A stretch of 64,000 bases of DNA from Williamsia serinedens (lineage in GTDB: Bacteria; Actinomycetota; Actinomycetes; Mycobacteriales; Mycobacteriaceae), in NCBI RefSeq assembly GCF_024171725.1, contig NZ_JAMTCG010000002.1:434001-498000 (forward strand). The letters are read 5' to 3'. The notes below the pieces were generated by a model. It worked only from the letters and a program-made list of their open reading frames with translations, ran no database searches and had not been told where the DNA came from. This document shows, one piece after another, positions 3,594 through 35,007 of the stretch. Each line of letters begins with the position of its first letter. Position 1 is the stretch's first letter. The position numbers and the translations under genes are program-made.

Positions 3594-4130
3594 ATGGCTT
3601 TCACCGCACCAGGACTGACAGAGGACAGCGCCGCCACCGTCGTGAAGACCCTCCAGGAGCGCCTCAGCGCCCTGAACGACCTGCACCTGACCCTGAAGCA
3701 CATCCACTGGAATGTCGTCGGCACCAACTTCATCGGTGTCCACGAGATGATCGACCCCCAGGTCGAACTGGTCCGTGGGTACGCCGACACCCTCGCCGAG
3801 CGCATCGCCACGATGGGCGCGTCCCCGCAGGGGACCGCCAAGGCGATCGAGGACAACCGCAGCTGGGACGACTACAGCCTCGGCCGCGACTCGGTGCAGG
3901 CGCATCTGGGTGCGCTCGACCTCGTGTACGTGGGCGTCATCAAGTCGCACCGTGACGCGATCGAGACCACCGGCAAGATCGATCCGGTCACCGAGGACAT
4001 CCTCATCGGCCAGACCGCCGAGCTCGAGAAGTTCCACTGGTTCGTGCGCGCCCACCTGGAGAGCTACACCGGCGAGCTGTCGAACGCCGGCGCCACCACC
4101 GAGCAGGAGGCGGCCGAGAAGGCCCGCTGA
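3594..4130 (+). CDS. dps: Dps, DNA-protecting mini-ferritin
   Basis: A 178-residue ferritin-like protein. The segment LKHIHWNVVG, followed by a VHEMID segment, carries the Dps ferroxidase ligands (His and His from one subunit, Asp and Glu from the neighbour). The later EKFHWFVRAHLE helix is also typical. Dps forms a dodecamer that oxidises Fe(II) with peroxide and shields DNA in stationary phase or oxidative stress. The tail after the last core helix is short and lacks the long Lys-rich extension of some mycobacterial Dps proteins. It is monocistronic, with an inverted repeat upstream (3492-3511) and a strong hairpin downstream (4225-4261). Confidence 0.93.
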   Translation: MAFTAPGLTEDSAATVVKTLQERLSALNDLHLTLKHIHWNVVGTNFIGVHEMIDPQVELVRGYADTLAERIATMGASPQGTAKAIEDNRSWDDYSLGRDSVQAHLGALDLVYVGVIKSHRDAIETTGKIDPVTEDILIGQTAELEKFHWFVRAHLESYTGELSNAGATTEQEAAEKAR

Positions 4131-4224
4131 CCTCGGCGCTCCACGTCGGCGGATGTCGATTTCACGACAGTCCGTGATGACAACCCCATAACGAACGCTC
4201 TCTCCTGCCCGGGAGGCGTCGCCC

Positions 4225-4261
4225 GCGTGGGCGGTTCGGACCCAGTCCGGACCGCCCACGC
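4225..4261. terminator. Strong hairpin between dps and the diacylglycerol kinase gene
   Basis: A 16-base stem starting GCGTGGGCGG, with one G-T wobble, and a five-base loop (CCCAG). It lies between two convergent genes, so it can stop transcription from either side. There is no run of T after the stem, as is common in high-GC actinobacteria. Confidence 0.75.
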
Positions 4262-4353
4262 CTGGCTGTGGGGGTCCTGTGAGACGTCCTGTCCCCCTGT
4301 ACCGTTCACCGGGGCTCTCGCGAAGCCGTTGCCCGACAGGGTGTGTCGGACCC

Positions 4354-4386
4354 TTGTCCACAGGTCGCTGTGGAAAGTGTGGACAA
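4354..4386. promoter_or_regulatory. Cluster of DnaA-box-like 9-mers
   Basis: TTGTCCACA at 4354-4362 and its exact reverse complement TGTGGACAA at 4378-4386 flank a third, weaker copy TGTGGAAAG at 4369-4377. TTGTCCACA fits the mycobacterial DnaA box pattern TT(G/C)TCCACA. The cluster sits in the 274-base gap between convergent dps and diacylglycerol kinase genes, where no promoter is expected. It is not near dnaA, dnaN or an AT-rich unwinding region, so it is not read as oriC. Confidence 0.55.
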
Positions 4387-4404
4387 CTGGACGTGTGGTC
4401 CCGA

Positions 4405-5310
4405 TCACACAGCGGGAACGAGGAATTGCACGGCTGCCGGCAGGGCCTCGACCGTGACCGGCGTGACGCCGAACACCTCGCCGTCGGCCGACGCCGGCAG
4501 GCCATCCGTCGACTCGACGGTCACGGTCGTCGCGCTGAACGTGTGGACACCGTGGTGTCGGACGTGGGTCCCGCGGTAGATCGTCGGGAAGAGTCGGAGC
4601 AGTCGTCCCCGGGAGGTGTGCTCGACGACCGTCACGTCCAGACGCCCGTCGTCGATCCGGGCGTCCGGGCAGATGCGCATCCCGCCGCCGTAGCTCGGGG
4701 TGTTGCCCACCGCCACGAGGATCGCCTCGAGCTCGTGCACCTCACCGTCGACCGTGATGCGCGTGCGGTGCGGTGTCAGGCGCGCGATCTCCGCGATCGC
4801 GGCCAGGGGGTACCGCGCCTGTCCCTGCGGCCATCGCATCGCCACCGCGCGTTCGGTGACCGCGGCGTCGAGGCCGATGGCCGCGACCGTCCCGAACACC
4901 ATCGACCGGTCACCCGCCTGCACGCGTCCGAGGTCGACGGCACGGCTGTGACCTGCGGCGACGATGTCGGCGGCGGCGTCGACGTCCCCGACGGGGATGC
5001 CGAGGGCACGTGCGTGGTCGTTGCCGGTCCCGGCCGGCATGATCCCGACGCGCACCGCGGATCCGACCGCGGCCTCCAGGACACCGGCGATCGTCCCGTC
5101 GCCGCCGATCACGACCACCGCGTCGGGTCCGTCGGCGACCGCCGCCGCCGCGACCCGGCGCGCGTCGTCGGCGTCCGTCCCGGACCGCACGTCGACACCG
5201 AGGCCGCGGGCCCGCAGGGCCGCTACCGCCGCCTGGGCCGTCGCGGCACCGGCACCGTGGCGGGAGCGGGGGTTGACCAGCGCGACGACGTCGCGAACCG
5301 CACGGGTCAC
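4405..5310 (-). CDS. Diacylglycerol kinase / lipid kinase family protein
   Basis: A 301-residue DAGK-catalytic-domain protein. It opens VALVNPRS, has the ATP-binding GGDGTI motif at about residue 74, followed by IMPAGTGNDHA, the usual order in DgkB/YegS-type kinases. It would phosphorylate diacylglycerol or a related lipid at the membrane. The GTG start at 5310 overlaps the stop of the upstream FAD enzyme (CAC/TCA at 5307-5310), implying coupled translation. In M. tuberculosis the neighbouring genes Rv2249c-Rv2252 have the same content (GlpD, TetR, flavoprotein, DAG kinase), and Rv2252 is linked to phosphatidylinositol mannoside formation. Confidence 0.85.
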   Translation of the reverse strand: MTRAVRDVVALVNPRSRHGAGAATAQAAVAALRARGLGVDVRSGTDADDARRVAAAAVADGPDAVVVIGGDGTIAGVLEAAVGSAVRVGIMPAGTGNDHARALGIPVGDVDAAADIVAAGHSRAVDLGRVQAGDRSMVFGTVAAIGLDAAVTERAVAMRWPQGQARYPLAAIAEIARLTPHRTRITVDGEVHELEAILVAVGNTPSYGGGMRICPDARIDDGRLDVTVVEHTSRGRLLRLFPTIYRGTHVRHHGVHTFSATTVTVESTDGLPASADGEVFGVTPVTVEALPAAVQFLVPAV

Positions 5311-6947
5311 GGGATGAGCTTGCCGGGGTTCATCACGCCCGACGGGTCGAGCGTCGCCTTCACCGCCCGGAGGACCTGCACACCGAGGTCCCCGATCTCG
5401 GCCGCGAGGTGGGCGCGGTGGTCGGTGCCGATCGCGTGGTGGTGGGTGATGGTCGCCCGGTGGTCGACGATCGCCCGCGACGCGGCCTCCTTCGCCGCCT
5501 CCCACTGCCCCACCGCATCGCGCTCGTCGAGGCGGTAGACGACGGTGAAGTACAGCGAGGCGGCGGTCGCGTAGGTGTGCGAGATGTGGCAGAGCACCAT
5601 GGCCGGCGAGGCCGCGAACGGTCCGTCGTCGGATCCCAGGGCCGTTGTCAGGGCGTCGGACACGGCCGTGCGGAGCGACACGACACCCGACCACGTCGTC
5701 GCGGTCTCCACCGTCTCGCACCCCACGCCGATCGCGAGCAGGGCGTCGCGCAGGTACGGCGCGTCGAAGCGCCCGTGCGCCCACGCCTGCGCCGGTTCCG
5801 GGCCGAGGTCGGTGGCACCCGCCTCGGTCAGCAGGTCAGCAACGCGTGCCCGCCGGTCGGCGCAGTCGCGCTCGGTGCCCTCGAACCGGGTGATCACCAG
5901 GCACCCGCCCGGCGACCCGTCGGCGCCGATCGCGCCCGGGGAGGCGAGGTTGACGGCGGTCTCCGCCTCGTCGGACATCCGCAGGACGGTGGGCCGGGCG
6001 TCCGAGCGGGCGACCGTGCGCACGGCCGCGGCGCCGCTCGCGAAATCGGGCAGCCGCCACGCCTGCGCCACCACCGCCTCGGGGACGGGGTGGACGCGCA
6101 GCGAGACCTCGGTGACGACACCGAACGTGCCCTCCGAACCCAGGACGAGCTGTCGGAGATCGGGACCGGCCGCGGACCGCTCCACCGGGCCGAGACGGAG
6201 GACGCCGCGGGGGGTGACCAGTGTCAGGCCCACGACCATCTCGTCGAACCGGCCGTAGCCCGCCGACGCCTGCCCCGACGACCGGGTCACGGCGAACCCG
6301 CCGACGGTCGCGTAGCGGAAGCTCTGCGGGAAGTGACCCAGCGACAGCCCGTGCTCGGCCAGCAGCTCCTCGGCGCGCGGGCCGGTGACGCCGGCGCCGA
6401 GGGCGGCGATGCGCGACACCTCGTCGAGGTCGACCAGACCGTCGAAGCGGCGCATGTCGAGGGAGATCACCGCCCGGTGTCCGCCGGCCAGCGGTGCGAG
6501 TCCGCCGGTGACGGCGGTGCCGCCGCCGTAGGTGACCACCGCGACGTCGGCGTCCGCGCACCAGGCGACGACGGCGGCCACCTCGTCGGTGGAGCCGGGC
6601 ACCACCACCGCGTCCGGAGCGGACTGTGTCGTCGCGCGGCGGCGCAGCAGGTCGGGGGTGCTGCGTCCCGCGGCGCGCAGCAACCGGTCGACGGGCGCGC
6701 GGGACACGTGGTCCTCGCCGACGATCCCGGTGAGCTCGGCCAGATCGTCGTCGGTCAGCCGGCAGTCGGGTACGACGACGTCGTCGGGGGTGTGCCGCGA
6801 TCGGGCGTCACCCCGGACACCGAGCGCGTCACGGATCAGACCGAGCATCGCGTCCGACAGGACCGTCTCCCGGTCCGGGTCGCCCCAGCCGTCCCAGCGC
6901 ATCGGGGGTGCGGGGACGGAGGAGAAGGAGGACGCCGACGCTGACAT
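5307..6947 (-). CDS. FAD-binding alkyl-DHAP-synthase-like oxidase
   Basis: A 546-residue VAO/PCMH-type flavoprotein. The N-terminus has MRWDGWGDP, characteristic of alkyldihydroxyacetonephosphate synthase (AGPS). The FAD domain carries VVTYGGGTAVTGGL (about residues 136-149) and SLGHFPQSFRYATVGG. The C-terminus has a triple-His motif, HHHAIGTDH, at about residue 502, matching the catalytic His cluster of AGPS, and ends DPSGVMNPGKLIP. AGPS swaps the acyl chain of acyl-DHAP for an alcohol to make ether lipids. Beside a lipid kinase and GlpD, a role in glycerol-phosphate ether lipids is reasonable, but a simpler glycolate/lactate-type oxidase cannot be excluded. Confidence 0.78.
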   Translation of the reverse strand: MSASASSFSSVPAPPMRWDGWGDPDRETVLSDAMLGLIRDALGVRGDARSRHTPDDVVVPDCRLTDDDLAELTGIVGEDHVSRAPVDRLLRAAGRSTPDLLRRRATTQSAPDAVVVPGSTDEVAAVVAWCADADVAVVTYGGGTAVTGGLAPLAGGHRAVISLDMRRFDGLVDLDEVSRIAALGAGVTGPRAEELLAEHGLSLGHFPQSFRYATVGGFAVTRSSGQASAGYGRFDEMVVGLTLVTPRGVLRLGPVERSAAGPDLRQLVLGSEGTFGVVTEVSLRVHPVPEAVVAQAWRLPDFASGAAAVRTVARSDARPTVLRMSDEAETAVNLASPGAIGADGSPGGCLVITRFEGTERDCADRRARVADLLTEAGATDLGPEPAQAWAHGRFDAPYLRDALLAIGVGCETVETATTWSGVVSLRTAVSDALTTALGSDDGPFAASPAMVLCHISHTYATAASLYFTVVYRLDERDAVGQWEAAKEAASRAIVDHRATITHHHAIGTDHRAHLAAEIGDLGVQVLRAVKATLDPSGVMNPGKLIP

Positions 6948-6972
6948 GCGTTACAGTTTTACACAACATGTC
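6943..6972. promoter_or_regulatory. Shared divergent promoter/operator spanning two start codons
   Basis: Only 20 bases separate the ATG of the minus-strand FAD enzyme (6947) from the ATG of the TetR gene (6968). GACATG at 6943-6948 and CATGTC at 6967-6972 form an inverted repeat that includes both start codons, with an AT-richer TTACAGTTTTACAC core between them. With so little room, at least one transcript is probably leaderless. The core is the likely TetR operator. Confidence 0.5.
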
Positions 6973-7570
6973 AACCAGTAATGCGGTTCTCGACGCGGCG
7001 CGGCGGTGCCTCGTGCGCAGCGAGGGACGGAAGGTGACGCTGGCCGAGGTCGCACGGGAGGCGGGCGTCAGTCGTCCGACCGTCTACCGCCACTGGCCGG
7101 AGATCTCCGCCGTGATCCGCGATCTGCTGACGCGGGAACTCGCGCACCTCAGCGCCGAGCACCTGTCGGCGGTGGACGACGCGCTCGCCCGCGGTGAGGG
7201 CGTCCTGGACGCGGTGGTCGCCGCGGTGGTGCGGGTCGCCGACGCCGTGACCGCGGATCCGCTGTTCGAGTCCCTCACCCGCCGACAGCCCGACCTGCTC
7301 GCGCCGTACGTCTTCGAACGCTTCGGTGCGAGTCAGCAGATGGCGCTGGAGAGTCTCGCGACGCGCCTCACCGCGGCGCAGGACGTCGGTGCCGTCCGCC
7401 GCGGCGACGCAGACCGCATCGCGGCCATGGTCATCCTGGTCGCCCAGTCCGCCATCACCGGCCGCGCCACCGTGGCGGCGATCATCGGCGACGACTGGGC
7501 CGACGAACTCGCCCGTGTGGTGCGCGGTTACCTCGCACCCGACCCGATCTCGGAGGACGATTCCCGATGA
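6968..7570 (+). CDS. TetR-family transcriptional regulator
   Basis: A 200-residue protein with the TetR helix-turn-helix at about residues 17-45: KVTLAEVAREAGVSRPTVYRHWP. The C-terminal part is a variable ligand-binding helical domain. It is divergent from the AGPS-like FAD enzyme and overlaps glpD by four bases (ATGA), so it likely represses both directions in answer to a lipid or glycerol-phosphate-related ligand. M. tuberculosis Rv2250c holds the same position. The ATG at 6968 is used rather than upstream in-frame codons, which lie inside the divergent gene. Confidence 0.85.
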   Translation: MSTSNAVLDAARRCLVRSEGRKVTLAEVAREAGVSRPTVYRHWPEISAVIRDLLTRELAHLSAEHLSAVDDALARGEGVLDAVVAAVVRVADAVTADPLFESLTRRQPDLLAPYVFERFGASQQMALESLATRLTAAQDVGAVRRGDADRIAAMVILVAQSAITGRATVAAIIGDDWADELARVVRGYLAPDPISEDDSR

Positions 7571-12270: not shown

Positions 12271-13236
12271 TCAGGGCGCGACGAGCAGGACCACCTTGCC
12301 GCGAGGTGCACCGGACACACTGAGGTCGACGGCGTCCCGCCACTGCGGGAACGGCACGGCTCGCGCGATCGGCAGACGGAACGCGCCACGTGCGGCGAGC
12401 GCCGCGTAGGTCGCGAGCAGCTCGGGCAACGGCGTGAAGGCCGGCGACATCTCGTCGAGGTTGACCCGTGCGCCGGCGGCGCGCGCCTCGTCGTGGTTGC
12501 TGATGGTCATCACGCGCCGGGGGTCGCCGCCGGCGAGTGTGACGAGATCGTGAATCGTCCCCGGGCTCGGCCGCGCGGCGTCGAGGACGAGATCGACGTG
12601 CGAACCCCGGGGCAGGGCGCGTACCCGCTCGACCATCCCGGCGCCGTACCCGGTCACGTGAGCGCCGTACCGGGTCAGGTCGTCGCGATAGGTGCTCCCG
12701 GCGGTCGCGAGGACGTGGGCGCCGCGTGCGAGCGCCATCTGGACCGCCGCGTGGCCGACCATGCCGCCGGCGCCGTGGACGAGAACCGTCGCGCCCGCGT
12801 GGACGCCCATCGCCTGCAGGGTCCACGCAGCGGTCTGCACCACCATGGGCAGCGTCGCCGCCTCCACCGGAGCCAGACCGTCCGGGACCGGTGCCCAGGC
12901 GTCGAGGATCGCCACGTCCGCGGCACCCGCGCTCGGTTGCCGCGCGAAGTCGGCCGAGCCGACGACGAGATCACCGACGCCCGGGGCGCCCTCGGAGAGG
13001 TCCGGCCCGACGGCGTCGACGATCCCGGCGACGTCGTATCCGACACCGCGCGGCAGCGGGGCCTGCAGGAACCCTCGACACAGCTCCCAGTCGGCCGGGT
13101 TGAGGCCGGTCGCGATCGTGCGGACCCGGATGGTGCCGGCCGGCGGGTCCGCGACCTCGACGTGGTCCTCGCAGAGCACGTCGAGCGGTTCCCCGAACGA
13201 GTGGAAGCGCAGGACGCGAGACTGACGTGCAGGCAT
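12271..13236 (-). CDS. Zinc-independent MDR-family quinone oxidoreductase
   Basis: A 321-residue medium-chain dehydrogenase/reductase. It has the N-terminal GroES-like domain (RTIATGLNPADWELCRG, GYDVAGIVDAVG) and the NADPH-binding AGATVLVHGAGGMVGHAAVQMA. The Cys/His zinc ligands of alcohol dehydrogenases are missing, which places it with QOR/zeta-crystallin reductases acting on quinones or enones. It is divergent from a TetR gene whose operator-like repeats lie between them, so it is probably that regulator's target and may answer to electrophiles. Confidence 0.85.
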   Translation of the reverse strand: MPARQSRVLRFHSFGEPLDVLCEDHVEVADPPAGTIRVRTIATGLNPADWELCRGFLQAPLPRGVGYDVAGIVDAVGPDLSEGAPGVGDLVVGSADFARQPSAGAADVAILDAWAPVPDGLAPVEAATLPMVVQTAAWTLQAMGVHAGATVLVHGAGGMVGHAAVQMALARGAHVLATAGSTYRDDLTRYGAHVTGYGAGMVERVRALPRGSHVDLVLDAARPSPGTIHDLVTLAGGDPRRVMTISNHDEARAAGARVNLDEMSPAFTPLPELLATYAALAARGAFRLPIARAVPFPQWRDAVDLSVSGAPRGKVVLLVAP

Positions 13237-13262
13237 GTGTGCCTCCCGGGAGCAGAATCGTT

Positions 13263-13303
13263 GTGACAGTCACTGACACTACACGTAACGACAGCGACTG
13301 TCG
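13263..13303. promoter_or_regulatory. Two operator-like inverted repeats in a divergent promoter
   Basis: GTGAC-A-GTCAC at 13263-13273 and CGACAG-CGA-CTGTCG at 13289-13303 lie in the 80-base gap between the MDR reductase and the TetR gene. Both contain ACAG/CTGT half-sites, so they may be two sites for one TetR dimer. Confidence 0.5.
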
Positions 13304-13316
13304 CTACGATGGTGTG

Positions 13317-13880
13317 ATGCCGAGGAGCGGAGCGGGAGCGCGCGCGAGACTGCGCGAAGCCGCACTGGACCTGTACGAGCAGCAGGGTTACGACGCCACG
13401 ACGACCGCACAGATCGCCGAGCGGGCAGGTGTCACCGAACGGACGTACTTCCGGCACTTCGCCGATAAGCGCGAAGTCCTCTTCGACGGGGAGGCCGCTC
13501 TGCTGGACACGATGGTCGCCGCGATCGTCGACGCGCCCGACGACCTCTCGCTTCTGGCCCTCGTGCTGCGTGCCTACGACGGGGCTGTCCCGCTGGTCGT
13601 CGCCGGCCGCCCCGTCGCGCACCGCCGGGCGCGCATCATCGCGACCTCCCCGGCTCTGCAGGAGCGCGCCCGCGCCAAGGCCGCAGCTGTCGACGAGGCC
13701 GTGACCCACGCCGTCGCGGGACGCGGTGTCCCCGAGCCGACGGCCCGCCTGACCGCGCGGATCGGGGCGGCGATCTTCGAACGCGCCGTCGCGGACTGGA
13801 ACGGGGTCGGCGCCGACGATCTCACCAGGCTGATCGATGCGGCGAGCGCCGAGGTGTCCGACCTCGTCCGGCGCGACTGA
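13317..13880 (+). CDS. TetR-family transcriptional regulator
   Basis: A 187-residue protein. The HTH reads TTTAQIAERAGVTERTYFRHFADKREVLF at about residues 28-56, the canonical TetR recognition helix. The remaining helical domain is Ala/Arg rich with no recognisable ligand signature. It is divergent from the MDR reductase at 13236, with two inverted repeats between. ATG 13317 is directly preceded in frame by a GTG; the ATG is preferred. Confidence 0.85.
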   Translation: MPRSGAGARARLREAALDLYEQQGYDATTTAQIAERAGVTERTYFRHFADKREVLFDGEAALLDTMVAAIVDAPDDLSLLALVLRAYDGAVPLVVAGRPVAHRRARIIATSPALQERARAKAAAVDEAVTHAVAGRGVPEPTARLTARIGAAIFERAVADWNGVGADDLTRLIDAASAEVSDLVRRD

Positions 13881-13935
13881 GCGTCGCGGGGTCAAGGCAC
13901 CGCAGTGTGCCGGTGGTGCGTGCCACAATGAGGTG

Positions 13936-14565
13936 ATGCCGATGCCGCATGATCCGGAGCACCAGGGACCCGAGTACGGGGGCCCGGACGACACGGTGTC
14001 AGCCAATCGGATTCGCGCCGGCAGCGTCCTCGTCGCGAGCACCACGCTGACCGAGCCGACGTTCCGCCGGACGGTCATCTACATCATCGAGCACAACGAC
14101 GCGGGCAGCCTCGGGGTCGTCGTCAACCGGATGAGCCAGACCGCCGTGCACAACCTCCTCCCCCGGTGGACCGACCTGTCGGCCTCACCACGGGCGGTGT
14201 TCATCGGCGGGCCGGTGAAGCAGGACGCGGCCCTGTGCCTCGGCGTCGTCCGCCGCGGTGTCGACGCGACCGGGGTGTCGGGTCTGCGCCCGGTCGACGG
14301 ACGTGTGGTCCTCGTCGACCTCGACGCCGATCCCGAGGAGCTGGCCGACGTGCTCGACGGGCTGCGCATCTTCGCCGGGTACTCCGGCTGGGGCATCGGC
14401 CAGCTCGAGGACGAACTGCGCCGCGACTCGTGGCTCGTCGGCTCAGCGCTTCCCGGCGACCTCCTGGCCTCGGCCCAGACCGACGTCTTCGCCTCGGTGC
14501 TCCGTCGGCAACCGTGGCCGCTGCCCCTCCTGGCGACCCACCCCGTCGACGTCGACCGGAACTGA
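13936..14565 (+). CDS. YqgE/AlgH (UPF0301) family protein
   Basis: A 209-residue protein with the family hallmarks G-S-V-LVAS, FRRTVIYIIEHNDAGSLGVVVNRM, AVFIGGPVKQDA and IFAGYSGWGIGQLEDEL. The family is widespread, but its biochemical role is unsettled. In M. tuberculosis the homologue (Rv0038) lies just before leuS (Rv0041) and next to an MFS gene. The same neighbours occur here at greater distance, so the region appears expanded by inserted genes. Start ATG 13936, after a GAGGTG Shine-Dalgarno-like segment. Confidence 0.9.
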   Translation: MPMPHDPEHQGPEYGGPDDTVSANRIRAGSVLVASTTLTEPTFRRTVIYIIEHNDAGSLGVVVNRMSQTAVHNLLPRWTDLSASPRAVFIGGPVKQDAALCLGVVRRGVDATGVSGLRPVDGRVVLVDLDADPEELADVLDGLRIFAGYSGWGIGQLEDELRRDSWLVGSALPGDLLASAQTDVFASVLRRQPWPLPLLATHPVDVDRN

Positions 14566-14591
14566 CGTCGCGGCGCTCGACGCCGCACCCG

Positions 14592-15023
14592 TCACTCCAG
14601 GACGAACACCGGGATCTGCCGGTCGGTCTTGGTCTGGTACTCCGCGTACGGCGGGTACGCGTCGACCGCGAGCGACCACCAGTGCTCCCGCTCGTCGCCC
14701 GACAGTTCGCGAGCGGTCATCTCGCGGACCTCGGTGCCGTCCTGCACCGTCACCGCCGGGTTGGCCTTGACGTTGTGGTACCAGGCGGGATGTCGCGGGT
14801 CGCCGCCCTTGGACGCGACCATCGCGTACTTGCCGTTCTCCTCGACCCGCATCAGCGGCGTGTAGCGCTTCTGACCCGACTTCGCGCCGGTCGTCGTGAA
14901 CAGCACGACGGGTCGGCCCATCACCTCGACACCGTCGGTGGTGCCCTGCTCGAGGATCTTCTCGGTCTGGTCGCGAACCCAGTCGGTGGGGCTCAGTTCC
15001 GGTTTCTCCGCCATGCCGTCCAT
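14592..15023 (-). CDS. Deazaflavin (F420)-dependent nitroreductase family protein
   Basis: A 143-residue split-beta-barrel protein of the Ddn/Rv3547 family. The signature runs G-R-P-V-V-L-F-TTTGAKSGQKRYTPLMR, then YAMVASKGGDPRHPAWYHN and NPAVTVQDG, which form the F420-binding pocket. Family members reduce quinones or activate nitro-drugs such as pretomanid. A second ATG at 15014 is an equally possible start. It is monocistronic and convergent with yqgE. Confidence 0.88.
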   Translation of the reverse strand: MDGMAEKPELSPTDWVRDQTEKILEQGTTDGVEVMGRPVVLFTTTGAKSGQKRYTPLMRVEENGKYAMVASKGGDPRHPAWYHNVKANPAVTVQDGTEVREMTARELSGDEREHWWSLAVDAYPPYAEYQTKTDRQIPVFVLE

Positions 15024-15158
15024 CAACGCCGCCGGGCCGTCAGGATTCCGCCGAACGCTCGTCGGTGCGTTCCGCGGTGTGCGCGCCAAGCGGCCTCCCA
15101 GTGATCTCCAAGCGGGCCGTCGGACCGTGGTCCCACCACACCGACACCGGAGGACACG

Positions 15159-15848
15159 ATGACCACCAGCCAGACCGCCCCCGCCGCCGAACTCGACCTG
15201 CTCGGCATGCAGGTCGCCCACCGCGGCATGCTCGCCGACTCGGACCGTTTCGCGACGATGCTCGCCGCAGTCGGGGCCGGCGCGCCCTGCTCGCGACGCC
15301 GGGCGAGTGCGATCGGCGCGTACCTGCGTGACTTCGCCGACTCGATCCACCACCACCACACCGTCGAGGACGACGTCCTGTGGCCGTTGATCGTCGAGGC
15401 CGTCGGCGACTCGGTCGACCTGACCGAGCTCACCGACGACCACGACAGCCTCGACCCGCTGCTCGATCGACTCCGGTCGCTCACCGCTCATTTCGTCGCG
15501 TCGTACCGCACCGCGGACCCCGACCCGTCGACGGCTGCTGCGCTCGGTGGCCTGCTCCGCGATCTGCACACGCTGCTCGACGAGCACATCGCCGAGGAGG
15601 AGCGACTCGTGTTCCCGATCATCCGCGGGCACCTCTCGCCCGAGGCGTGGTCGTCGGTGGAGGAGACCGCCCGCAAGAGCGGCAAGCTCGGTTTCGAGTT
15701 CCCGCGGTTCCTCGTGCACACCACGCCCGCCGAGCTCGACCGTGCCCTCGCCGACGGCGGTGTCGGCCTGCGACTGATGCTCTCGGTCATCAAGGCCACC
15801 GCGGGACGCGCGTTCGCCCGGCGCGAGGCGGTCATCGCCGGCGCGTGA
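15159..15848 (+). CDS. Hemerythrin-like HHE-domain protein
   Basis: A 229-residue four-helix protein. Iron-ligand candidates appear in order: H in VAHRGM, the H-HHH-T-VEDDVLWP helix, TDDHDSLDPLL, and LDEHIAEEERLVFP, the spacing of a hemerythrin/HHE diiron site. About 60 residues follow the last ligand helix. Such proteins in actinobacteria bind oxygen or NO or take part in oxidative stress. A clear GGAGG Shine-Dalgarno precedes the ATG. Confidence 0.87.
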   Translation: MTTSQTAPAAELDLLGMQVAHRGMLADSDRFATMLAAVGAGAPCSRRRASAIGAYLRDFADSIHHHHTVEDDVLWPLIVEAVGDSVDLTELTDDHDSLDPLLDRLRSLTAHFVASYRTADPDPSTAAALGGLLRDLHTLLDEHIAEEERLVFPIIRGHLSPEAWSSVEETARKSGKLGFEFPRFLVHTTPAELDRALADGGVGLRLMLSVIKATAGRAFARREAVIAGA

Positions 15849-15895
15849 GCGCCTGCCCGACGCCGGCGCGGAAGCGGTTGTGCCACCGTGGACGC

Positions 15896-16441
15896 ATGCA
15901 CACCTACCCGATCGAGGTGGTGTCCCTCCTGGTGTCCCCGCGTCACGCGTACTTCGGGCGACCGAAGGACGGCGCCGCCGACGACGTGGAGACGTCGCAT
16001 CCCGCGAGCGTCGAGATCGTCGCCGACAAGGGGATCCGTGGTGACCGGTTCTTCGGGGTGCGCGCCCACACCGAGGCGGCCGTGACCTTTCTCGCGCTCG
16101 AGGCGTGGGAGGCCGCGGCCGCCGACGCCGATCCCCACCTCGCGCGCCGCAACGTGATGGTCCGCGGACTCGAGCTGGACCCGCTGCGTGGCGTCGAGTT
16201 CACCCTCGACACCGGCGACGGACCGATCCGCTTCCGCGGCGGCCGTCCGGCACACCCGTGCTCGTGGATGGACACGATGGCCGGCTACGGCACGCGCAAG
16301 GCACTCATCGGACGGGGCGGCCTGCGGGCGCAGCCGCTCACCGACGGGATCCTCCGGGTCGGCCCCGGCGTCGTCGTCGCCGACGTCGACCTCGACCCGG
16401 CCCGCGCGGCCGATCAGGTGCGCCGGGCTCAGCCGATCTGA
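15896..16441 (+). CDS. MOSC-domain protein
   Basis: A 181-residue stand-alone MOSC domain. It begins VVSLLVSPRHAYFGRP, carries GIRGDRFFG and NVMVRGLEL, and has the conserved cysteine in RPAHPCSWMD near residue 122. That cysteine is thought to carry sulfur for molybdenum-cofactor chemistry, as in YiiM, MOCOS and mARC. A role in detoxifying N-hydroxylated bases or sulfur transfer is possible. It is convergent with the FAD oxidase at 16445, with only three bases between. Confidence 0.87.
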   Translation: MHTYPIEVVSLLVSPRHAYFGRPKDGAADDVETSHPASVEIVADKGIRGDRFFGVRAHTEAAVTFLALEAWEAAAADADPHLARRNVMVRGLELDPLRGVEFTLDTGDGPIRFRGGRPAHPCSWMDTMAGYGTRKALIGRGGLRAQPLTDGILRVGPGVVVADVDLDPARAADQVRRAQPI

Positions 16442-27286: not shown

Positions 27287-27354
27287 CGACCCAGGATACG
27301 AGGCGCCCGCGACCGGGGGTCTGCGGGCCTGTGGCCACGCTTTACGCTGGTCAG

Positions 27355-30186
27355 GTGACAAGCGACACCACCTCTGCCACCGGCCACCGCTACACCGCGG
27401 CGGTGGCCGGCGACATCGAGGCCCGCTGGCAGCGGATCTGGACCGAGCGGGGCACCTTCGAGGCGCCCAATCCGGTCGGACCGCTCGCGGGTGATCTCGG
27501 CGGCACCACCGAGAAGTTGTTCGTGCAGGACATGTTCCCCTACCCGTCCGGCTCGGGGCTGCACGTCGGCCACCCGCTGGGCTTCATCGCCAGCGACGTG
27601 TACGCCCGCTTCCACCGGATGATCGGCGTCAACGTCCTCCACACGATGGGCTTCGACGCGTTCGGGCTGCCCGCCGAGCAGTACGCCGTCCAGACGGGCA
27701 CGCACCCGCGCACCACCACCGAGGCGAACGTCGAGCGCTACCTCGCCCAGATCCGTCGCCTCGGTCTGGGTCACGACGAGCGCCGTCGGGTGTCGACCAC
27801 CGACGTCGACTTCTACAAGTGGACGCAGTGGATCTTCCTGCAGATCCACGGTGCCTGGTACGACGAGGACGCGAACCGCGCCCGACCGGTCGCCGAGCTG
27901 ATCGCCGAGTTCGACGCCGGGACCCGCGTTCCCGCCGACGGGTCGGTGTGGGCCGAACTCGACGACGCCGCGAAGGCGGCCGTCGTGGACTCGTACCGTC
28001 TCGTCTACCAGTCCGACTCGATGGTCAACTGGTGTCCCGGGCTGGGCACCGTGTTGGCCAACGAGGAGGTCACGGCCGACGGGCGCAGCGATCGCGGCAA
28101 CTTCCCGGTGTTCCGGAAGCGGCTGCGGCAGTGGATGATGCGCATCACCGCCTACTCCGACCGCCTGCTCGACGATCTCGAGCTGCTCGACTGGCCGGAC
28201 AAGGTGAAGTCGATGCAGCAGAACTGGATCGGGCGATCCCGCGGTGCGCGCGTGTCGTTCTCGGTCCCCGGCGTGGACACCCCGATCGAGGTGTTCACCA
28301 CTCGTCCCGACACGCTGTTCGGCGCCACCTACATGGTGCTCGCGCCCGAGCACGATCTGGTCGACCGGATCGTCGCCGACGCCTGGCCCGCGGACGTCGA
28401 CGCCCGCTGGACCGGTGGTGCCGCGTCCCCGGCCGACGCCGTCGCCGCCTATCGCGCGTCGGTCGCCGCCAAGTCGGACCTCGAGCGCCAGGAGAACAAG
28501 GAGAAGACCGGCGTCTTCACCGGCGCGTTCGCGGTGAACCCCGTGAACGGCGAACGGGTCCCGGTGTTCATCGCCGACTACGTGCTGATCGGCTACGGCA
28601 CCGGCGCGATCATGGCGGTCCCCGCGCACGACGGACGTGACTTCGAGTTCGCGACCGCGTTCGGTCTGCCCATCGTCGAGGTCATCGGGTCCGACGAGGG
28701 TGTCGCGGAGGCCGCCTTCGTGGGCGACGGACCACTGGTGAACTCCGGATTCCTGGACGGGATGCGCGTCGACGAGGCCAAAGCCGCCATCATCGACCGT
28801 CTCGAGGCCGACGGGACCGGCACGGGCACAGTGCAGTACAAGTTGCGTGACTGGCTCTTCGCGCGCCAGCGGTACTGGGGAGAGCCCTTCCCCATCGTCT
28901 ACGACGATGCGGGACAGGCCCATCAGATCCCCGAGTCACAATTGCCGGTCGAGCTGCCCGAGGTCGACGACTTCGCGCCGGTCTCGTTCGACCCCGACGA
29001 CGCGGACAGCGTCCCCTCTCCCCCGCTGGCGAAGGCGACCGACTGGGTGAACGTCGAACTCGATCTGGGTGACGGACTGCAGCACTACACCCGCGACACC
29101 AACGTGATGCCCCAGTGGGCGGGCAGCTCCTGGTACCAGCTGCGCTACATCGACCCGACCGACGAGAACCGGTTCTGCGAACCGGAGAACGAGCAGTACT
29201 GGATGGGTCCGCGCCCGGATCTGCACGGGGAGAACGACCCCGGTGGACTGGACCTGTACATCGGCGGCGTCGAGCACGCGGTGCTGCACCTGCTGTACGC
29301 GCGGTTCTGGCACAAGGTCCTCTACGACCTGGGCCACGTCTCGAGCATCGAGCCGTATCGGAAGCTCTACAACCAGGGCATGATCCAGGCTTTCGCCTAC
29401 ACCGACGCGCGCGGGATCTACGTGCCGGCCGAGGAGGTCGAGGAGCGCGACGGCGGCTTCTTCTTCCAGGGCCAGCCGGTCCGCCGCGAGTACGGGAAGA
29501 TGGGCAAGTCGCTCAAGAACTCCGTTGCGCCCGACGACATCTGCCGGGACTACGGTGCGGATACCCTGCGTGTCTACGAGCTGTCGATGGGTCCGCTGGA
29601 CCAGTCGCGTCCGTGGGCGACGAAGGACGTCGTCGGCGCGCAGCGGTTCCTGCAGCGCGTGTGGCGGCTCGTCGTCGACGAGGAGTCCGGCTCGGTGCGG
29701 CTGACGGACGACGCCCCGGCCGACGAGACGGCGAAGACGTTGCACCGCACCATCGCCGGCGTGCGCGACGACTACGCGGCGCTGCGGTTCAACACCGCGA
29801 TCGCGAAGCTCATCGAGTACACGAACCACCTCACCAAGCAGTACCCGGACGGCGCACCGCGGGATGCGGTGTCGCCCCTGGTCTCGATGGTCGCGCCGGT
29901 GGCCCCGCACCTCGCCGAGGAGTTGTGGTCGGCTCTCGGACATGACGAGTCGCTCGCACACGGGCCGTTCCCCGTCGCCGACGAGTCGCTGCTCGTCGAG
30001 GACACCGTGGAGATCCCGGTGCAGGTGAAGGGCAAGGTGCGCAGCAGGATCACCGTCGCGGCCGAGGCCGATGAGGCGACCGTCGTCGGTGCTGCGCTGG
30101 CAGACGACAAGATCGCCGCCTTGCTCGACGGCGAGCCGCGCAAGGTGATCTATGTTCCCGGCCGCATGGTGAACGTCGTCCCCTGA
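27355..30186 (+). CDS. leuS: Leucyl-tRNA synthetase
   Basis: A 943-residue class I synthetase charging tRNA-Leu. It has the HIGH motif as H-V-G-H in [16 protein letters not shown] (residues 62-76) and KMGKS at about 715-719. Between them lie the CP1 editing domain with [15 protein letters not shown] and a [18 protein letters not shown] loop. The C-terminal anticodon domain ends [11 protein letters not shown]. The GTG start at 27355 is preferred because earlier codons lie in the promoter gap, but an in-frame GTG at 27331 exists. The AT-rich two-gene island begins directly downstream. Confidence 0.97.
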
Positions 30187-30268
30187 GTGATTCACAAATT
30201 GCAGATGCGGGCGCGCTGCTCAAAAGCCGCGGGCTACTCTGGCGAGATCGTTGGGGGGAGCAGGAGCA

Positions 30269-31591
30269 TTGAGTTCGACGAAGCATGTGCGTACTGAACT
30301 CGACAGCAACTTTGTCCTGATTAGAGCACAGGCGGGAGCATCTAGAACATTAATCGTATTCGTCCACGGACTCGGGGGGAGCGAAGATACCTGGGCGAAG
30401 TTCCCCGAACTGGCTATCGATGGGCTGGGCGGCGCCTCCAAAGATTCGGCCATCTTTCGCTACTACAAGGGAGCCAAATCCCTACTTCGCCGACGCCCTT
30501 CGCCACAAGTTAGGTCGCGTCAATTAGCGAACCATCTCACACAAGTTGCGAATGATTACCAAGAAATCTATTTGGTCGGTCACAGCCTGGGCGGCTTAAT
30601 AGCCGAGGATGCGGTACGCCGATTCCACCAGCAGAAGAAGGGGAGCTACCCTGAAGTCGGAATTATCGCCGGTGTTATCGTCTTCGGCAGCCCTAGACTC
30701 GGCTCGAAGTGGGTCCGCAGTTGGTCGGCCATCGCACTAAGGGAGTCGTTCTACCTCCGACGACACTCGGGTATACAAGGCGATATTGAGGAATTCTTCA
30801 GTAATCACGTTAATGTTGATATTGATGTGGCGCCGTCGAATGGGAAGGTACAAATTCCGCGTTTCGTGTGCGCCGGGACAAAGGACCGGATGGTCGATGA
30901 ATTAAGTGCAACTTTCGGGGTGCGCGAGGCGCAAATTAAGCTTCTCGATTGTGGCCATAAAAAGTTGGTGAAGCCTGAAACCGCGGACTCGCCATCTGCT
31001 GCATGGCTTGGTGGCGTAATTCGTGAAATTTCTAGCCGCCGGCAGGAATGGTATGCATCCCTAGCCGAAAAGGCTAACAAGCCCCCAATGGCGAGCCAGA
31101 ATCTACCTGGTCCGCTAGTCCTTGTGACTGAGGTAAATTCTGATATTGACCTTACTGATTGGGTGGATGTGTATAACGAAGTTCGTAACCGACTTACAAC
31201 CGAAGCGGTGGTTTTTGTCGATCGGATAGCCGCTCCCGCCGGCATGGACGCATCCATACTTGTGGCGATTCAGCGACCTGACCGTTTAGTCAACGACATA
31301 TACCAGCCAACTCCGCTTCTGCAGAGACTCGATCAAAGGTTTCGTACTCGAACAGTATCGCTTATGGTGGCCGCGCCAAACACCCCGGCGGTGCAAAAGC
31401 TAGCCGCTGTAAAAGAAATTCTTCATGACGCGGCAAGTGATGGTTCTGCTCATCGGCTAGCAGTCAAGGAGTTCTCTGACGTTGAGAGTTTCGGTGATGG
31501 CCTACTCCGGTGGTTCACCGGCATAGTTGCCGCCGATCCCCGGCGTCGTCAGCTCATTTACGCCAACAGCGAAGGAAGGGATCGGCTGTGA
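30269..31591 (+). CDS. Alpha/beta-hydrolase with unknown C-terminal region (foreign island)
   Basis: A 440-residue protein beginning at TTG, with GGGGGGAG eight bases upstream. The N-terminal part (about 1-255) is a PGAP1/lipase-like alpha/beta-hydrolase: oxyanion region LIVFVHGLGGSEDTW, nucleophile elbow G-H-S-L-G-G (Ser near 106), probable acid Asp near 206 in CAGTKDRMVD, and His near 230 in LDCGHKKLV. Residues 275-440 contain alternating strands (PLVLVTEV, AVVFVDRI, ASILVAI, TVSLMVAAP) and match no family I recognise. There is no signal peptide. Codon use is far more A/T rich than the flanks. The stop overlaps the next gene by four bases, so the pair is coupled. It is a possible toxic or nucleotide-, lipid- or protein-cleaving effector; the substrate is unknown. 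Confidence 0.78.
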   Translation: MSSTKHVRTELDSNFVLIRAQAGASRTLIVFVHGLGGSEDTWAKFPELAIDGLGGASKDSAIFRYYKGAKSLLRRRPSPQVRSRQLANHLTQVANDYQEIYLVGHSLGGLIAEDAVRRFHQQKKGSYPEVGIIAGVIVFGSPRLGSKWVRSWSAIALRESFYLRRHSGIQGDIEEFFSNHVNVDIDVAPSNGKVQIPRFVCAGTKDRMVDELSATFGVREAQIKLLDCGHKKLVKPETADSPSAAWLGGVIREISSRRQEWYASLAEKANKPPMASQNLPGPLVLVTEVNSDIDLTDWVDVYNEVRNRLTTEAVVFVDRIAAPAGMDASILVAIQRPDRLVNDIYQPTPLLQRLDQRFRTRTVSLMVAAPNTPAVQKLAAVKEILHDAASDGSAHRLAVKEFSDVESFGDGLLRWFTGIVAADPRRRQLIYANSEGRDRL

Positions 31592-34038
31592 GTTTAGAAT
31601 GGCTAGCGGCGTTGATAAGCCCACACGAGATCGCGCCTCATCCAAATTTCTCGAATGACGACAATTTGTCTAGGCCGCCCGCCGTTCTCGCCGCGATCGT
31701 GCTCGGCCAAAATCCATGGGGACGTGCGCAATTACGCGCACTCGCGTCGGACGAACCCCATCACGAAATGCCAGAATACTTGCACGCCGCCCTTCAGTCA
31801 CTCGACTTTCGCGAACAGCATCTGGGCATTGAAAGTCTGTCTAGCCACTTAGAGTCGGAAAGTCAGACCGCTGAAACAGTCCCCGAATGCTGCGCTCTTG
31901 CCATCTTTGTTTCGGCTTGTCTGGCAGAGCTGGAAGACTATGACCAGTGCGAACAAATCCTTACGTCTCAGTTGCAGCACCTCGAGGCGCTTAACGACTC
32001 CCATGAATCTAGAGTCTGGCGGAGTGCCTTGCTTGCGCAAAGGGGTCTGCGAAGACTTGACGCTGGTCTTTCGCCAATTTCTGACGCCAAGCTGGCGTAT
32101 GAGATTTTAGAAACCGTAGATTCGCGGCAGTGCGCTGATTTTCCGACCAACTCGGGAACGGGCGAACCGCCTCACATAATAGTTTCTCGAATGGTCGCGG
32201 CCCTGCAACGGTCGGCGTGGAGCCTGTCGCCCGGACAGTTCTGGACCGAAAACGCCGGTACGGCCAATTCCAGTCTCTCGAATAACCCATTTGACTCCAT
32301 TTTCGCTCGGATACGCTCTCCTCGATCTGAGTTACTATTGACCATCAGTCGCGACGCCGCAAATGAGTACGAACGGCTCGTCGAGGATAAATTCGGCGAC
32401 ATTGTTCCAAGCAGCGCAACGACAATTGGTCGAACACGGCCGGATATCTTCTACTCATTGCTCCGCTATGAATTGCTTGGGCATCAAGCGTCGAGGGAGA
32501 CTAGGAAGGAGCTGGCATTATTCAGAGTTGTTCAGGCCGAAAGGCCGTTCTCCGTTGAATTCGCCGAGGATATTCTTCGCCTACTCCGACGTTCTGGCGA
32601 CGATAAGACGCTATCTCGATTCGTGAGGGCATTGCGTTCGTCCGGGCCATTGGCGGCCGTCACTAGGGATGCGCGACAGATAGTTAGAACACGCCGGAGG
32701 TTGGGCAACGTTGATGTTGCGGAGTTGTCCGTTTTAAAGCACTCTGCGGACTTAATGACTGCAGACGACGCGCGCGCGGCATTCGATCTGGTGGCGAACG
32801 AAGTCGAGCACGGCGAATCCAGGATGGTGGGCAGGTGGCGGCATGAAACGACCTGGGCGGAGGCGGCTTGGACCACCTTGGCCACGCTGGCGAACACGGT
32901 CGGAGAGGCCGACCGTATTGCAGCAACACTTGCGGATGTGGCGACGCAGTATTCTTCCGATGAGCTGTGGGATCGCCTGATCGGCCGCGCCCTGAACATA
33001 CTGGACGTAACGCGTCCGGCCACGGGTGCTGTCGCGGAAAGCTGGAAGTCGGCCCTGGGTCGGAATGCCGATATCGGTCGAGCCACGATGCGCGCCTATC
33101 TGCAGTTGACCAGAAGTGAAGACCTGCTTAGCGAACGCCTCGAGGGCACACCGTCGGATCTCTCCGACGTAGTAGAACTATTTAACGCAACTATTGCACT
33201 CGGCCGGGACTTTCCGAACTCAAAACTTCGAGTGTCGAAGCGCCTGGCGTCGGAGAAGCTTTATCAGATCCGTAGCAACGCGCGCCAGGGACAGTTCTCG
33301 GGTTGGGCTTACGATCCGGGTGAGATAGCTACTTTGCTTTTGATCGAGGACCCCGACGAAGAATATTGCGGCGAGGTGCTCGACTTCATCTTTGACGCCA
33401 ACGTCCCCCGGAACGATCGTTCCGTAGCATTAGGTCGGCTGGCCCGCGAGACGCCATCAATTCCGGCTAATGTCCTCGCCACTTACGCGGAACGGGTCAC
33501 CCAGCTCGTTAATCAACGATCGCCGGTTTCGATGTTCGGCGATCCGGATTCCGAAGTATTCATTTCCGCATTAGAATTCGCCATCGCGTATCAATTGTTG
33601 TCGCCTGATGAGGTTGCCCACTATCTCACGCTCTTGTCCGCGTCTCCTTCGCTTACCACTCGCCGAGATGGGTGCGTTGCCCTTGCTGAGGCTGTAAGGA
33701 TCGAATTCCGTCCGGAACTGTTGTGGATTTTAGTAAGGCTTTCCTATGATGAAGACGCTGAGGTACGGGCGTCCAGCGCGAGAGGAATAATTCAATCTCT
33801 GTCTCGAGACGGCTCGCCGTCAGGACGGATCCTAGAACGCATCGAGGCGCTGAGTCGCGAGGACGGTATGGCCATGCCCTTTGCAATCGTCCGGGAGCTG
33901 CGATTAGTTCGCGGTAAATTCGCTGCATCGAAAGATTTTCAGACGGTGGTCTACGGAATTCTTGATCGCTACAGAAGTGGACACATGTCGGAGCAAGTCA
34001 GACGTGCAGCGCGCGAACTCATTACTCAGTGGGCTTGA
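31588..34038 (+). CDS. Large helical-repeat (HEAT/TPR-like) protein (foreign island)
   Basis: An 816-residue protein from GTG 31588, with AAGGAAGG about eight bases upstream. It is almost entirely amphipathic helices with no membrane segment, P-loop or nuclease motif. Residues 85-165 (CALAIFVSACLAELEDYDQCEQIL and so on) look TPR-like. A HEAT-like repeat lies near 689-740 (PELLWILVRLSYDEDAEVRASSARGIIQSL). Such superhelices act as sensors or scaffolds, so it probably binds and controls the hydrolase made from the same message. Composition is as foreign as its partner's. I do not recognise the family. Confidence 0.75.
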   Translation: MSLEWLAALISPHEIAPHPNFSNDDNLSRPPAVLAAIVLGQNPWGRAQLRALASDEPHHEMPEYLHAALQSLDFREQHLGIESLSSHLESESQTAETVPECCALAIFVSACLAELEDYDQCEQILTSQLQHLEALNDSHESRVWRSALLAQRGLRRLDAGLSPISDAKLAYEILETVDSRQCADFPTNSGTGEPPHIIVSRMVAALQRSAWSLSPGQFWTENAGTANSSLSNNPFDSIFARIRSPRSELLLTISRDAANEYERLVEDKFGDIVPSSATTIGRTRPDIFYSLLRYELLGHQASRETRKELALFRVVQAERPFSVEFAEDILRLLRRSGDDKTLSRFVRALRSSGPLAAVTRDARQIVRTRRRLGNVDVAELSVLKHSADLMTADDARAAFDLVANEVEHGESRMVGRWRHETTWAEAAWTTLATLANTVGEADRIAATLADVATQYSSDELWDRLIGRALNILDVTRPATGAVAESWKSALGRNADIGRATMRAYLQLTRSEDLLSERLEGTPSDLSDVVELFNATIALGRDFPNSKLRVSKRLASEKLYQIRSNARQGQFSGWAYDPGEIATLLLIEDPDEEYCGEVLDFIFDANVPRNDRSVALGRLARETPSIPANVLATYAERVTQLVNQRSPVSMFGDPDSEVFISALEFAIAYQLLSPDEVAHYLTLLSASPSLTTRRDGCVALAEAVRIEFRPELLWILVRLSYDEDAEVRASSARGIIQSLSRDGSPSGRILERIEALSREDGMAMPFAIVRELRLVRGKFAASKDFQTVVYGILDRYRSGHMSEQVRRAARELITQWA

Positions 34039-34064
34039 CCTGATAATGCACTGGGGGGATCCTT

Positions 34065-34193
34065 ATGCGCGTCGGCGGTTGTCCGGCGTTGATCCCAGAA
34101 GTGCGCAGCGACGACGCCGATCGTCGCCGGGTCGAACTACGGGTCGAGACCGCGTTCCTTCTGGGACTCGCAGTCGCAGTGCGGGTCCCTTGA
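34065..34193 (+). CDS. Possible 42-residue small protein at the island edge
   Basis: ATG 34065 is preceded by GGGGGGAT with seven-base spacing, a better ribosome site than most in the window. The reading frame runs 42 codons, Arg/Asp rich at first and then with a hydrophobic end, FLLGLAVAVRV. GC is back to native level here, so it may be a remnant at the right junction rather than part of the island. The remainder of the 273-base gap to 34312 shows no gene. Confidence 0.3.
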   Translation: MRVGGCPALIPEVRSDDADRRRVELRVETAFLLGLAVAVRVP

Positions 34194-34311
34194 GGATGAG
34201 GATCGCTCATACCAGCCTTCGAGAAGTCGGAGAAGACGGGGAATCACGCTTATCGGACATACGCGCAGAGTCTCAGGCGCTGCAGTCGCCGGACCGACAG
34301 ACTCTTTGTCT

Positions 34312-35007
34312 GTGACGAGAGGTGTGGCGACGGCGTCGACGCCGCGGTTCGTGTTGATCCTCATCGGCGTGGGCGGCTTCCTCGACGCGTACACATACCT
34401 GACGCGCGGGGGAGTGTTCGCGAACACGCAGACCGGCAACGTCATCCTGCTCGCGACGTCGAGCGCCGCGGGCGAGTGGCACCGCGCTGTCGCCCACCTG
34501 TGGTCGATCCTGGCGTTCGTCGTCGGTGTCCTGGTGGCGACGATGCTGCGGACGTGGTGGCGTGACGCGACCAGCGCGTCACTGCTGTTGTCCGTGACGC
34601 TCGCGCAGGCCGTCGTCCTGGGGCTCGTTGCCGCCGTCCCGGCTTCCTGGCCGAACGTGGTCGTCACTGTGCCGATCGCCTTCGTCGCGGCGATGCAGAT
34701 GGAACTCTTCCGGTCGATCGGTGGTTTGCCCATCATCACCATCGCGACGACCGGCAACCTGATGCGTTTCGTCGAGTCGGTGCATGCGGTGATCACCCAG
34801 CGCGACAGCGACAGTCGTCGTCGGTGTGCGCTCTACTCCGCGGTCGTCGCTGCGTTCGCCGGGGGAGCGGTGGTCGGTGCCGTGATCTCCCGGTGGCTCG
34901 GCACTCCTGCGGTCGCCGTGTGCGGGGGGGCGATGGTCGTCGTCGCGCTGATGGTCCTGTACGACGCCCGTCAGATCGACGGCGACGCAGCAGAACCCGA
35001 GGGGTGA
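34312..35007 (+). CDS. YoaK/DUF1275 family membrane protein
   Basis: A 231-residue protein with six or seven hydrophobic helices. The N-terminal GVGGFLDAYTYLTRGGVFANTQTGNVILLA is the DUF1275 signature, and a second one, MQMELFRSIGGLPIITIATTGNLMRFVES, follows in the fourth helix. The family is related to SLC26-like membrane folds, and its function is unknown. GTG 34312 is used; a TTG two codons earlier is possible. It is the first clearly native gene right of the island. Confidence 0.85.
   Translation: MTRGVATASTPRFVLILIGVGGFLDAYTYLTRGGVFANTQTGNVILLATSSAAGEWHRAVAHLWSILAFVVGVLVATMLRTWWRDATSASLLLSVTLAQAVVLGLVAAVPASWPNVVVTVPIAFVAAMQMELFRSIGGLPIITIATTGNLMRFVESVHAVITQRDSDSRRRCALYSAVVAAFAGGAVVGAVISRWLGTPAVAVCGGAMVVVALMVLYDARQIDGDAAEPEG

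Follow-up and report, generated by a model that had tools for sequence, protein, structure and literature searches.

A low-GC two-gene cassette of Williamsia serinedens as a probable effector-swapping conflict system with a TPR/HEAT-like core protein

Between leuS and a YoaK-like gene of Williamsia serinedens lies a two-gene cassette that is probably a horizontally moved, effector-swapping conflict system built on a constant core. This core would consist of a TPR/HEAT-like helical protein and a domain, here designated X, at the C terminus of the protein encoded just upstream. What stands ahead of X would act as an effector, or would assist one as its adaptor or membrane part. The cassette is found at positions 30187 to 34055 of the window, by which we mean the whole 64,000-nucleotide stretch of contig NZ_JAMTCG010000002.1 that was analysed (contig positions 434,001 to 498,000, forward strand). 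It forms a 3.9-kb block of low GC content that contains two co-directed open reading frames (ORFs), the first coding for an alpha/beta-hydrolase that ends in X and the second for a helical protein of 816 residues. The GC content of the cassette is 0.551, compared with a mean of 0.710 (standard deviation 0.013, minimum 0.677) for 262 equal-size control blocks, all taken from the rest of the same window. A first-pass annotation, made from the sequence alone, had described a foreign cassette at this location, and these values bear it out.

Relatives of the helical protein were identified in 16 actinobacterial genomes that carry it as a separate gene (the split form) and in 8 that carry it fused to a DUF4365 domain. 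Immediately 5′ to the split helical gene lies a gene that encodes X in 9 of the 16 genomes and an X-like domain in the other 7. What precedes this domain differs between loci. A hydrolase is linked to X in five genomes (the window, L043, L044, L047, and L081), and thus the pairing of hydrolase and helical protein proposed at first pass recurs; the hydrolase is a probable effector, as that annotation had also suggested. A transmembrane (TM) region is fused to X or the X-like domain in three (L035; L051/L077 and L052), and in one (L036, genome G481) X follows a bDLD3 domain that is matched with an E value of 4e-23. The remaining seven loci (L045, L049, L053, L055, L078, L079, and L080) have a separate TM gene followed by X or an X-like domain, with L055 counted as TM plus X-like and its TM gene judged by eye. 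Among 14 measured junctions between partner and helical gene, nine are exact 4-base overlaps and the others have gaps of −22, −16, −1, −1, and +8. The TM partners might be SLATT proteins, but Pfam gave no match for those of L037, L035, L051, L052, and L078. In six of the separate TM partners (L053, L078, L079, L080, L037, and L045) the C-terminal domain is a common one in which two cysteines are invariant, and these proteins are possibly exported. Residues 6 to 61 of the L052 TM partner weakly match (E 1e-3) the N terminus of the TPR protein HaaT from clusters for cyclophane-type ribosomally synthesized and post-translationally modified peptides.

These counts come from helical-protein searches with E values up to 0.001, which yielded hits in 5 of 201 family genomes, 7 of 397 order genomes, 9 of 296 class genomes, 2 of 396 phylum genomes, and 10 of 250 genomes of another family, tallies that include the genome of the window itself and some repeats. 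In addition, an IUPAC pattern scan of genome contigs returned 13 stretches, 10 of which have a helical gene confirmed by profile; the other three (L046, L048, and L050) have no helical gene by profile and were rejected. Genomes met twice (G095, G367, G1201, and G717, corresponding to four named hosts) were counted once, and weak matches in G1065, G1090, G469, G354, and G322 (E 3e-5 to 4e-4) as well as partial ones at L005 and L006 (E 4e-4 and 6e-4) were left uncounted. Hosts of the split form include Rhodococcus triatomae, a Mycobacterium metagenome-assembled genome (MAG), Microbispora, Ornithinimicrobium (two), Pseudonocardia oroxyli, Nonomuraea deserti, Kribbella jiaozuonensis (two copies), and an Actinomycetota MAG. 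The two K. jiaozuonensis cassettes (L052 and L054) have equal gene lengths and profile scores, and each is followed downstream by a 359-residue gene that appears integrase-like from its sequence.

Domain X spans about residues 285 to 430 of the window hydrolase (approximately positions 31103 to 31541, forward strand). It is a C-terminal domain of about 150 residues that, in relatives, stands behind differing N-terminal parts. When run against 1493 ORFs, a profile of only the four hydrolase-linked X domains recovered the TM-linked X (E 8.7e-32), the bDLD3-linked X (7.6e-8), and the stand-alone X of L053 (4.8e-6), with the next match at E 4.1. Conversely, a profile of the TM-linked and bDLD3-linked X domains matched three hydrolase X domains at E 1.3e-19 to 5.8e-11. 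Profile support for X extends to nine loci (the window, L043, L044, L047, L035, L036, L053, L078, and, weakly, L081), and the X-like domains of the other seven, taken as a group, align with X in a profile–profile comparison (hhalign 90.9%, E 1.1e-6, 132 columns). No Pfam family matches X above its cut-off, and an alignment of eight X sequences found no solved structure below E 0.5. A search with X alone in 197 class genomes returned only that of the window, a result that depends on how many helical carriers were among those genomes and that has limited sensitivity for so short a domain. The first-pass annotation had called this part of the hydrolase a novel C-terminal region; the region is a shared domain. 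Because X also occurs behind other N-terminal parts, sequence comparison identifies X and the helical protein as the conserved core and the hydrolase as one of several interchangeable parts.

The exchange of these parts is also evident from a phylogenetic tree of 21 helical proteins, comprising 15 split and 6 fused forms. The tree omits the DUF4365 fusions L085 and L086, as well as L055, whose C-terminal part fails to align. One clade (support 100/100) unites four hydrolase forms with one TM-linked and the bDLD3-linked form, and within it the Ornithinimicrobium hydrolase form is nearer to the TM and bDLD3 forms (100/98). A tree in which the hydrolase forms make up one clade is rejected by the approximately unbiased test, both for all five (p 1.5e-5) and for the four nearest (p 8.6e-4), where groups were set by partner type and the four were picked after inspection of the tree. 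The placement of L081 is unsure because of its long branch. Distributed over the 21 rows, the five partner states require at least six changes of state.

More distant relatives extend the range of partners to nuclease-type domains. DUF4365 is matched in all eight of the long fusions, with E values no higher than 5e-19, and one of them (L084, the single fusion compared) aligns with the profile of split-form helical proteins over 627 columns (E 4e-19). A GTD...QxK pattern is present in seven of the eight fusions; in the published account of a short-Argonaute complex, Q62 and K64 of its DUF4365 domain are given as potential active-site residues (PMC10810196). The L040 fusion matches the PADLOC family Aga_REase (E 1.3e-17), over the DUF4365 part only. 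This range of partners is difficult to reconcile with a toxin–antitoxin-like pair, in which the hydrolase would arrest growth, the helical protein would neutralise it, and addiction rather than sensing would be selected. Overlapping genes, sporadic distribution, and foreign composition are all as expected for such a pair. However, antitoxins are normally small and toxin-specific, whereas here it is the large partner that stays constant while the presumed toxin is swapped, and a distant relative of this partner is fused to DUF4365 in eight genomes. A toxin–antitoxin arrangement is therefore unlikely.

The hydrolase gene of the window lies at positions 30251 to 31591 of the forward strand and codes for 446 residues if read from the TTG at 30251. 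A second TTG at 30269, giving 440 residues, is the likelier start because AGGAG sits just upstream. It also accounts for the first-pass numbering: Ser~106, Asp~206, and His~230 of that annotation are S112, D212, and H236 here, where residues are counted from 30251. As that annotation had noted, the gene begins with TTG and overlaps its neighbour by four bases: the stop codon at 31589–31591 and the GTG at 31588 that opens the second ORF overlap as GTGA. The alpha/beta-hydrolase domain (approximately 30338 to 31031, forward strand) matches Abhydrolase_6 (E 1.1e-8) and DUF676 (E 3.3e-7), both above the Pfam cut-offs. It has the marks of the superfamily, namely a nucleophile elbow H-S-L-G-G (GxSxG) and a Ser-Asp-His triad, which are invariant in all four aligned hydrolases, including that of L047, whose ORF is incomplete 5′ because the locus stops there. 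The same triad is readable in the fifth (L081), and the triad proposed earlier is thus intact. By hydropathy, no stretch of the window hydrolase passes the threshold set for TM or signal-like helices. The protein is probably a soluble membrane-lipid or ester hydrolase of the DUF676/lipase-like group. Other hydrolase matches (E 2.9e-7 to 9e-4) span mostly the generic hydrolase core and do not enter the counts; three plasmid records match about half of the protein only, at 23–26% identity. Neither window protein has a Pfam match to an NTPase domain, in agreement with the earlier statement that an NTPase is absent, nor to a vWA, caspase, or GTPase domain.

The second gene (positions 31588 to 34038, forward strand) encodes the helical protein, in which the N-terminal WLAALISPHEIAPHPNF segment is among the best-conserved parts. 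Its description as a TPR/HEAT-like protein is weak from the window sequence alone, for which the best HEAT match (E 0.09) falls below the Pfam cut-off and PADLOC and NCBIfam return no match. The description is supported through relatives. Over its last fifth, a ten-row profile of the family hits solved HEAT structures, namely PP2A-A and alphaRep chains (E 2.5e-4 to 5.4e-4), and the fused relatives match HEAT_2, at best with E 3.9e-8, along with several weak TPR models. This best HEAT_2 match belongs to L084, in which HEAT is found as well, both above cut-off. The first 20 residues (W..A...P...APHPN) rank among the best-conserved parts of the protein, and the APHxN portion of this segment comes soon after the nuclease domain in the DUF4365 fusions.

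The insertion site is consistent with horizontal acquisition. On the left, the cassette abuts leuS (27331 to 30186, forward strand), and on the right it is followed by the YoaK-like gene (34306 to 35007, forward strand); both names are those of the first-pass annotation. The right edge is near 34055, and past it lies the remnant of a symporter-like ORF (34047 to 34175, reverse strand) that is counted outside the cassette. This remnant comprises 43 residues with an in-frame stop, 36 of which are identical to the corresponding ORF of genome G044, and from the ORF sequence we take it to be the C terminus of a sodium/alanine-type symporter. We searched for both flanks in eight genomes of the genus. 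In G044, which has the closest leuS (95% identical), the symporter-like ORF is open and 514 residues long, and other genes also occupy the leuS–YoaK interval. Two further genomes (G094 and G079) represent empty sites, where leuS and YoaK are about 30 bp apart or less. Altogether, a clear YoaK orthologue (88–94% identical) is present in three other genomes of the genus, two with near-adjacent leuS and YoaK and one with genes between them. Of the eight, only the genome of the window has the helical protein; the remaining seven gave no match to it. Because G044 has other genes in the interval and the window keeps a symporter-like remnant, the cassette seems to occupy an already variable interval, having replaced part of it. 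The 3′ side of leuS may be a recurrent place of insertion. A search of the window for tRNA genes found none, and no pair of repeats flanking the insertion stood out.

The distribution of the family is sporadic, and in all 14 measured pairs the GC content of the helical gene is below that of the rest of its locus. The deficit ranges from 0.02 (L036) to 0.15 (the window), with relatives reaching 0.13. It is highly improbable that these are native genes of unusual composition, given that the GC content of the cassette is far outside the range of all 262 control blocks and that no more than about 30 bp separates leuS from YoaK in G094 and G079. Each of the 16 split-form homologues has a partner gene, and conservation of the locus by descent is not seen within the genus, two findings that leave the first-pass proposal of a horizontally acquired pair standing. 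Separately, genome G107 has a different low-GC pair (GC 0.57–0.59) beside the same end of leuS (L116, 6557 to 8485), consisting of a 209-residue ORF without a Pfam match and a protein with a helix-turn-helix and an IrrE-type part.

The bDLD3 form (L036) adjoins genes for PNP_UDP_1-bDLD3, bDLD3-NACHT/AAA, and WD40 proteins, and in PMC8195603 a gene combination of the nucleosidase-bDLD3, bDLD3-NACHT, and WD40 type is described as a counter-invader system. The same source also lists fusions of bDLD3 to alpha/beta-hydrolases, which would hydrolyse membrane lipids (PMC8195603). In L036, positions 2608–7555 and 12656–16338 hold the Death-like-domain gene set and, on the other side, genes for another PNP_UDP_1 protein and for one of FGE-sulfatase type. 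Elsewhere, a Beta_protein family gene (Pfam E 2e-70) is located near the TM-X pair of L035 (13322 to 14374, genome G527).

The abundance of TM partners raises the alternative of a non-defence membrane module, in which the hydrolase would remodel lipids or esters on a helical scaffold and the TM forms would belong to a membrane-stress or signalling system. Separate TM genes at 7 of the 16 loci, TM regions before X or X-like domains at three, and the two invariant cysteines common to six aligned TM proteins are compatible with such a role. Exchange with a bDLD3 domain beside a NACHT/WD40 set, fusion to DUF4365 in distant relatives, and sporadic low-GC cassettes in place of vertical descent all speak against it, and we regard this alternative as fairly unlikely.

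For a wider view of gene neighbourhoods, we examined 102 neighbour ORFs from 16 loci in 15 genomes, including both Kribbella copies. They were predicted with a simple gene caller, and ORFs that were shorter than 110 residues, cut by the end of a locus, or of low coding signal were excluded. Three of them match Phage_integrase, and the 25 commonest Pfam families among them include conjugative coupling proteins in two. The latter bear on interbacterial competition, wherein the hydrolase would be an exported toxin and the helical protein its chaperone or immunity partner. Contact-dependent killing does employ hydrolase toxins that have a cognate partner. This explanation is very unlikely for the cassette, since the window hydrolase has no stretch that passes the TM or signal-like threshold; the coupling proteins were counted at the loci of relatives, and no search aimed at secretion-system genes in the window was made. 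Compared with an effector-swapping conflict system, the toxin–antitoxin, membrane-housekeeping, and interbacterial-toxin explanations all account less well for the bDLD3 exchange and the nuclease fusion.

Several observations weigh against a conflict system, or against the unity of its parts. The first-pass annotation had suggested that homologues be examined for enrichment in defence islands. The neighbour ORFs match 29 PADLOC families, compared with 5 among 53 window ORFs used as a control, but this signal is weak and the enrichment only suggestive because many of the families are generic ATPases and because families rather than ORFs were counted. Neither window protein is matched by PADLOC. 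The helical protein has no match among plasmids with the window or Ornithinimicrobium protein as query, nor among phages with the Ornithinimicrobium protein as sole query. Viral contigs gave pattern matches (queries A1, A5, and A6, and the hydrolase) but no relative, and the IUPAC pattern found 0 stretches in them. Some partners might not be effectors at all: the TM proteins may be anchors or sensors, and bDLD3 is an adaptor that occurs in only 1 of the 16 genomes. Lastly, certain links between X domains are faint. As a lone query the window X reaches E values no better than 0.0009 to 0.0044 with other X domains, and the profile of TM-linked and bDLD3-linked X reaches it only at 0.046. The L081 domain, in a protein on a long branch, scores E 0.005, and the X-like domains of 7 of the 16 genomes are tied to X as a group only, with L045 also weakly linked by hidden Markov model.

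If the cassette is indeed an effector-swapping conflict system, its sequence features would be compatible with an anti-phage function in which the helical protein serves as receptor and regulator, X as adaptor, and the hydrolase as effector. The helical protein would dock on X through its conserved N-terminal segment and thereby keep the hydrolase inactive. Sensing of an invader, or of the damage that it causes, might then make the helical protein change shape or assemble. The released hydrolase could attack membrane lipid or ester bonds, leading to growth stop or death of the infected cell. The sequences show the pairing, the exchange of the part before X, the intact triad, the foreign composition, and the empty sites, whereas docking, inhibition, trigger, substrate, and outcome are inferred.

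A broader proposal is tentative, and we stop short of favouring it. Here, X and the helical protein would be a new, NTPase-free receptor–adaptor core for immunity that drives a hydrolase, a membrane protein, or a nuclease, and its bDLD3 form would plug into a Death-domain/NACHT network. X would be a new adaptor, and the APHxN segment a common contact for effectors. If this proposal is true, such a core would need no NTPase switch to connect a repeat-protein receptor with effectors that can be interchanged. A single family of partners would then tie together hydrolases acting on membranes, membrane proteins, a nuclease domain of the Argonaute type, and Death-like adaptors. It would also offer a testable two-gene system, with domain X as a handle for finding more effectors.

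How the cassette relates to known systems depends in part on domains that Pfam should be able to detect, since we take it to contain models for EAD (besides bDLD3), EACC1, and TRADD-N. With these models, no EAD or bDLD domain was found in the window proteins (bDLD3 occurs in 1 of the 16 genomes), and no EACC1, caspase, or cyclase domain was matched in the window proteins or the relatives scanned. Argonaute or APAZ likewise had no match in the window pair or the DUF4365 fusions, a result that among the neighbours of the fusions covers a single ORF, the 300-residue one that follows the L040 fusion, which is without any Pfam match. A partial literature search, which did not cover preprints, found no description of an NTPase-free core of X and a helical protein. 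Exchangeable effectors on a constant core, in contrast, are already known from the EAD, EACC1, and TRADD-N systems (PMC7159879, PMC8195603).

The EAD/bDLD effector-associated systems of Kaur and colleagues (eLife 2020, PMC7159879; eLife 2021, PMC8195603) resemble the cassette family in combining a constant core with exchangeable effectors or adaptors. These systems also use alpha/beta-hydrolase, TM, and bDLD3 parts and include actinobacterial hosts, and one cassette relative has bDLD3. Unlike them, the cassette has a core of X and a TPR/HEAT-like protein and lacks NTPase, vWA, caspase, and GTPase domains. The EACC1 systems, as described in PMC7159879, are likewise prevalent in actinobacteria and made of two genes with a constant and a variable component, and they have a 5′ membrane link as in the TM forms. 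Their 3′ gene, however, is the variable one and carries caspase or cyclase domains, whereas the 3′ gene of the cassette encodes the constant helical protein (PMC7159879). Bacterial TRADD-N proteins, according to PMC8195603, have a varying N-terminal effector, a middle domain, and C-terminal TPR/HEAT repeats, a layout that is similar to that of the cassette. The cassette differs in being split over two genes and in having no TRADD-N match in Pfam, and the likeness is judged from the order of the parts.

In the DUF4365-APAZ short Argonaute system SPARDA, as presented in PMC10810196, a DUF4365 domain with a QxK motif is present as it is in the fused relatives. These fusions have the helical protein in place of Argonaute/APAZ, and the window pair has no DUF4365. 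The last comparison is with STAND/NLR-like sensors that carry TPR or WD40 repeats. Unlike these, the cassette has no STAND NTPase, although a bDLD3-NACHT gene adjoins one of its relatives, the remaining neighbourhoods having been scanned in bulk; the logic of a repeat-protein sensor joined to an effector is common to both.

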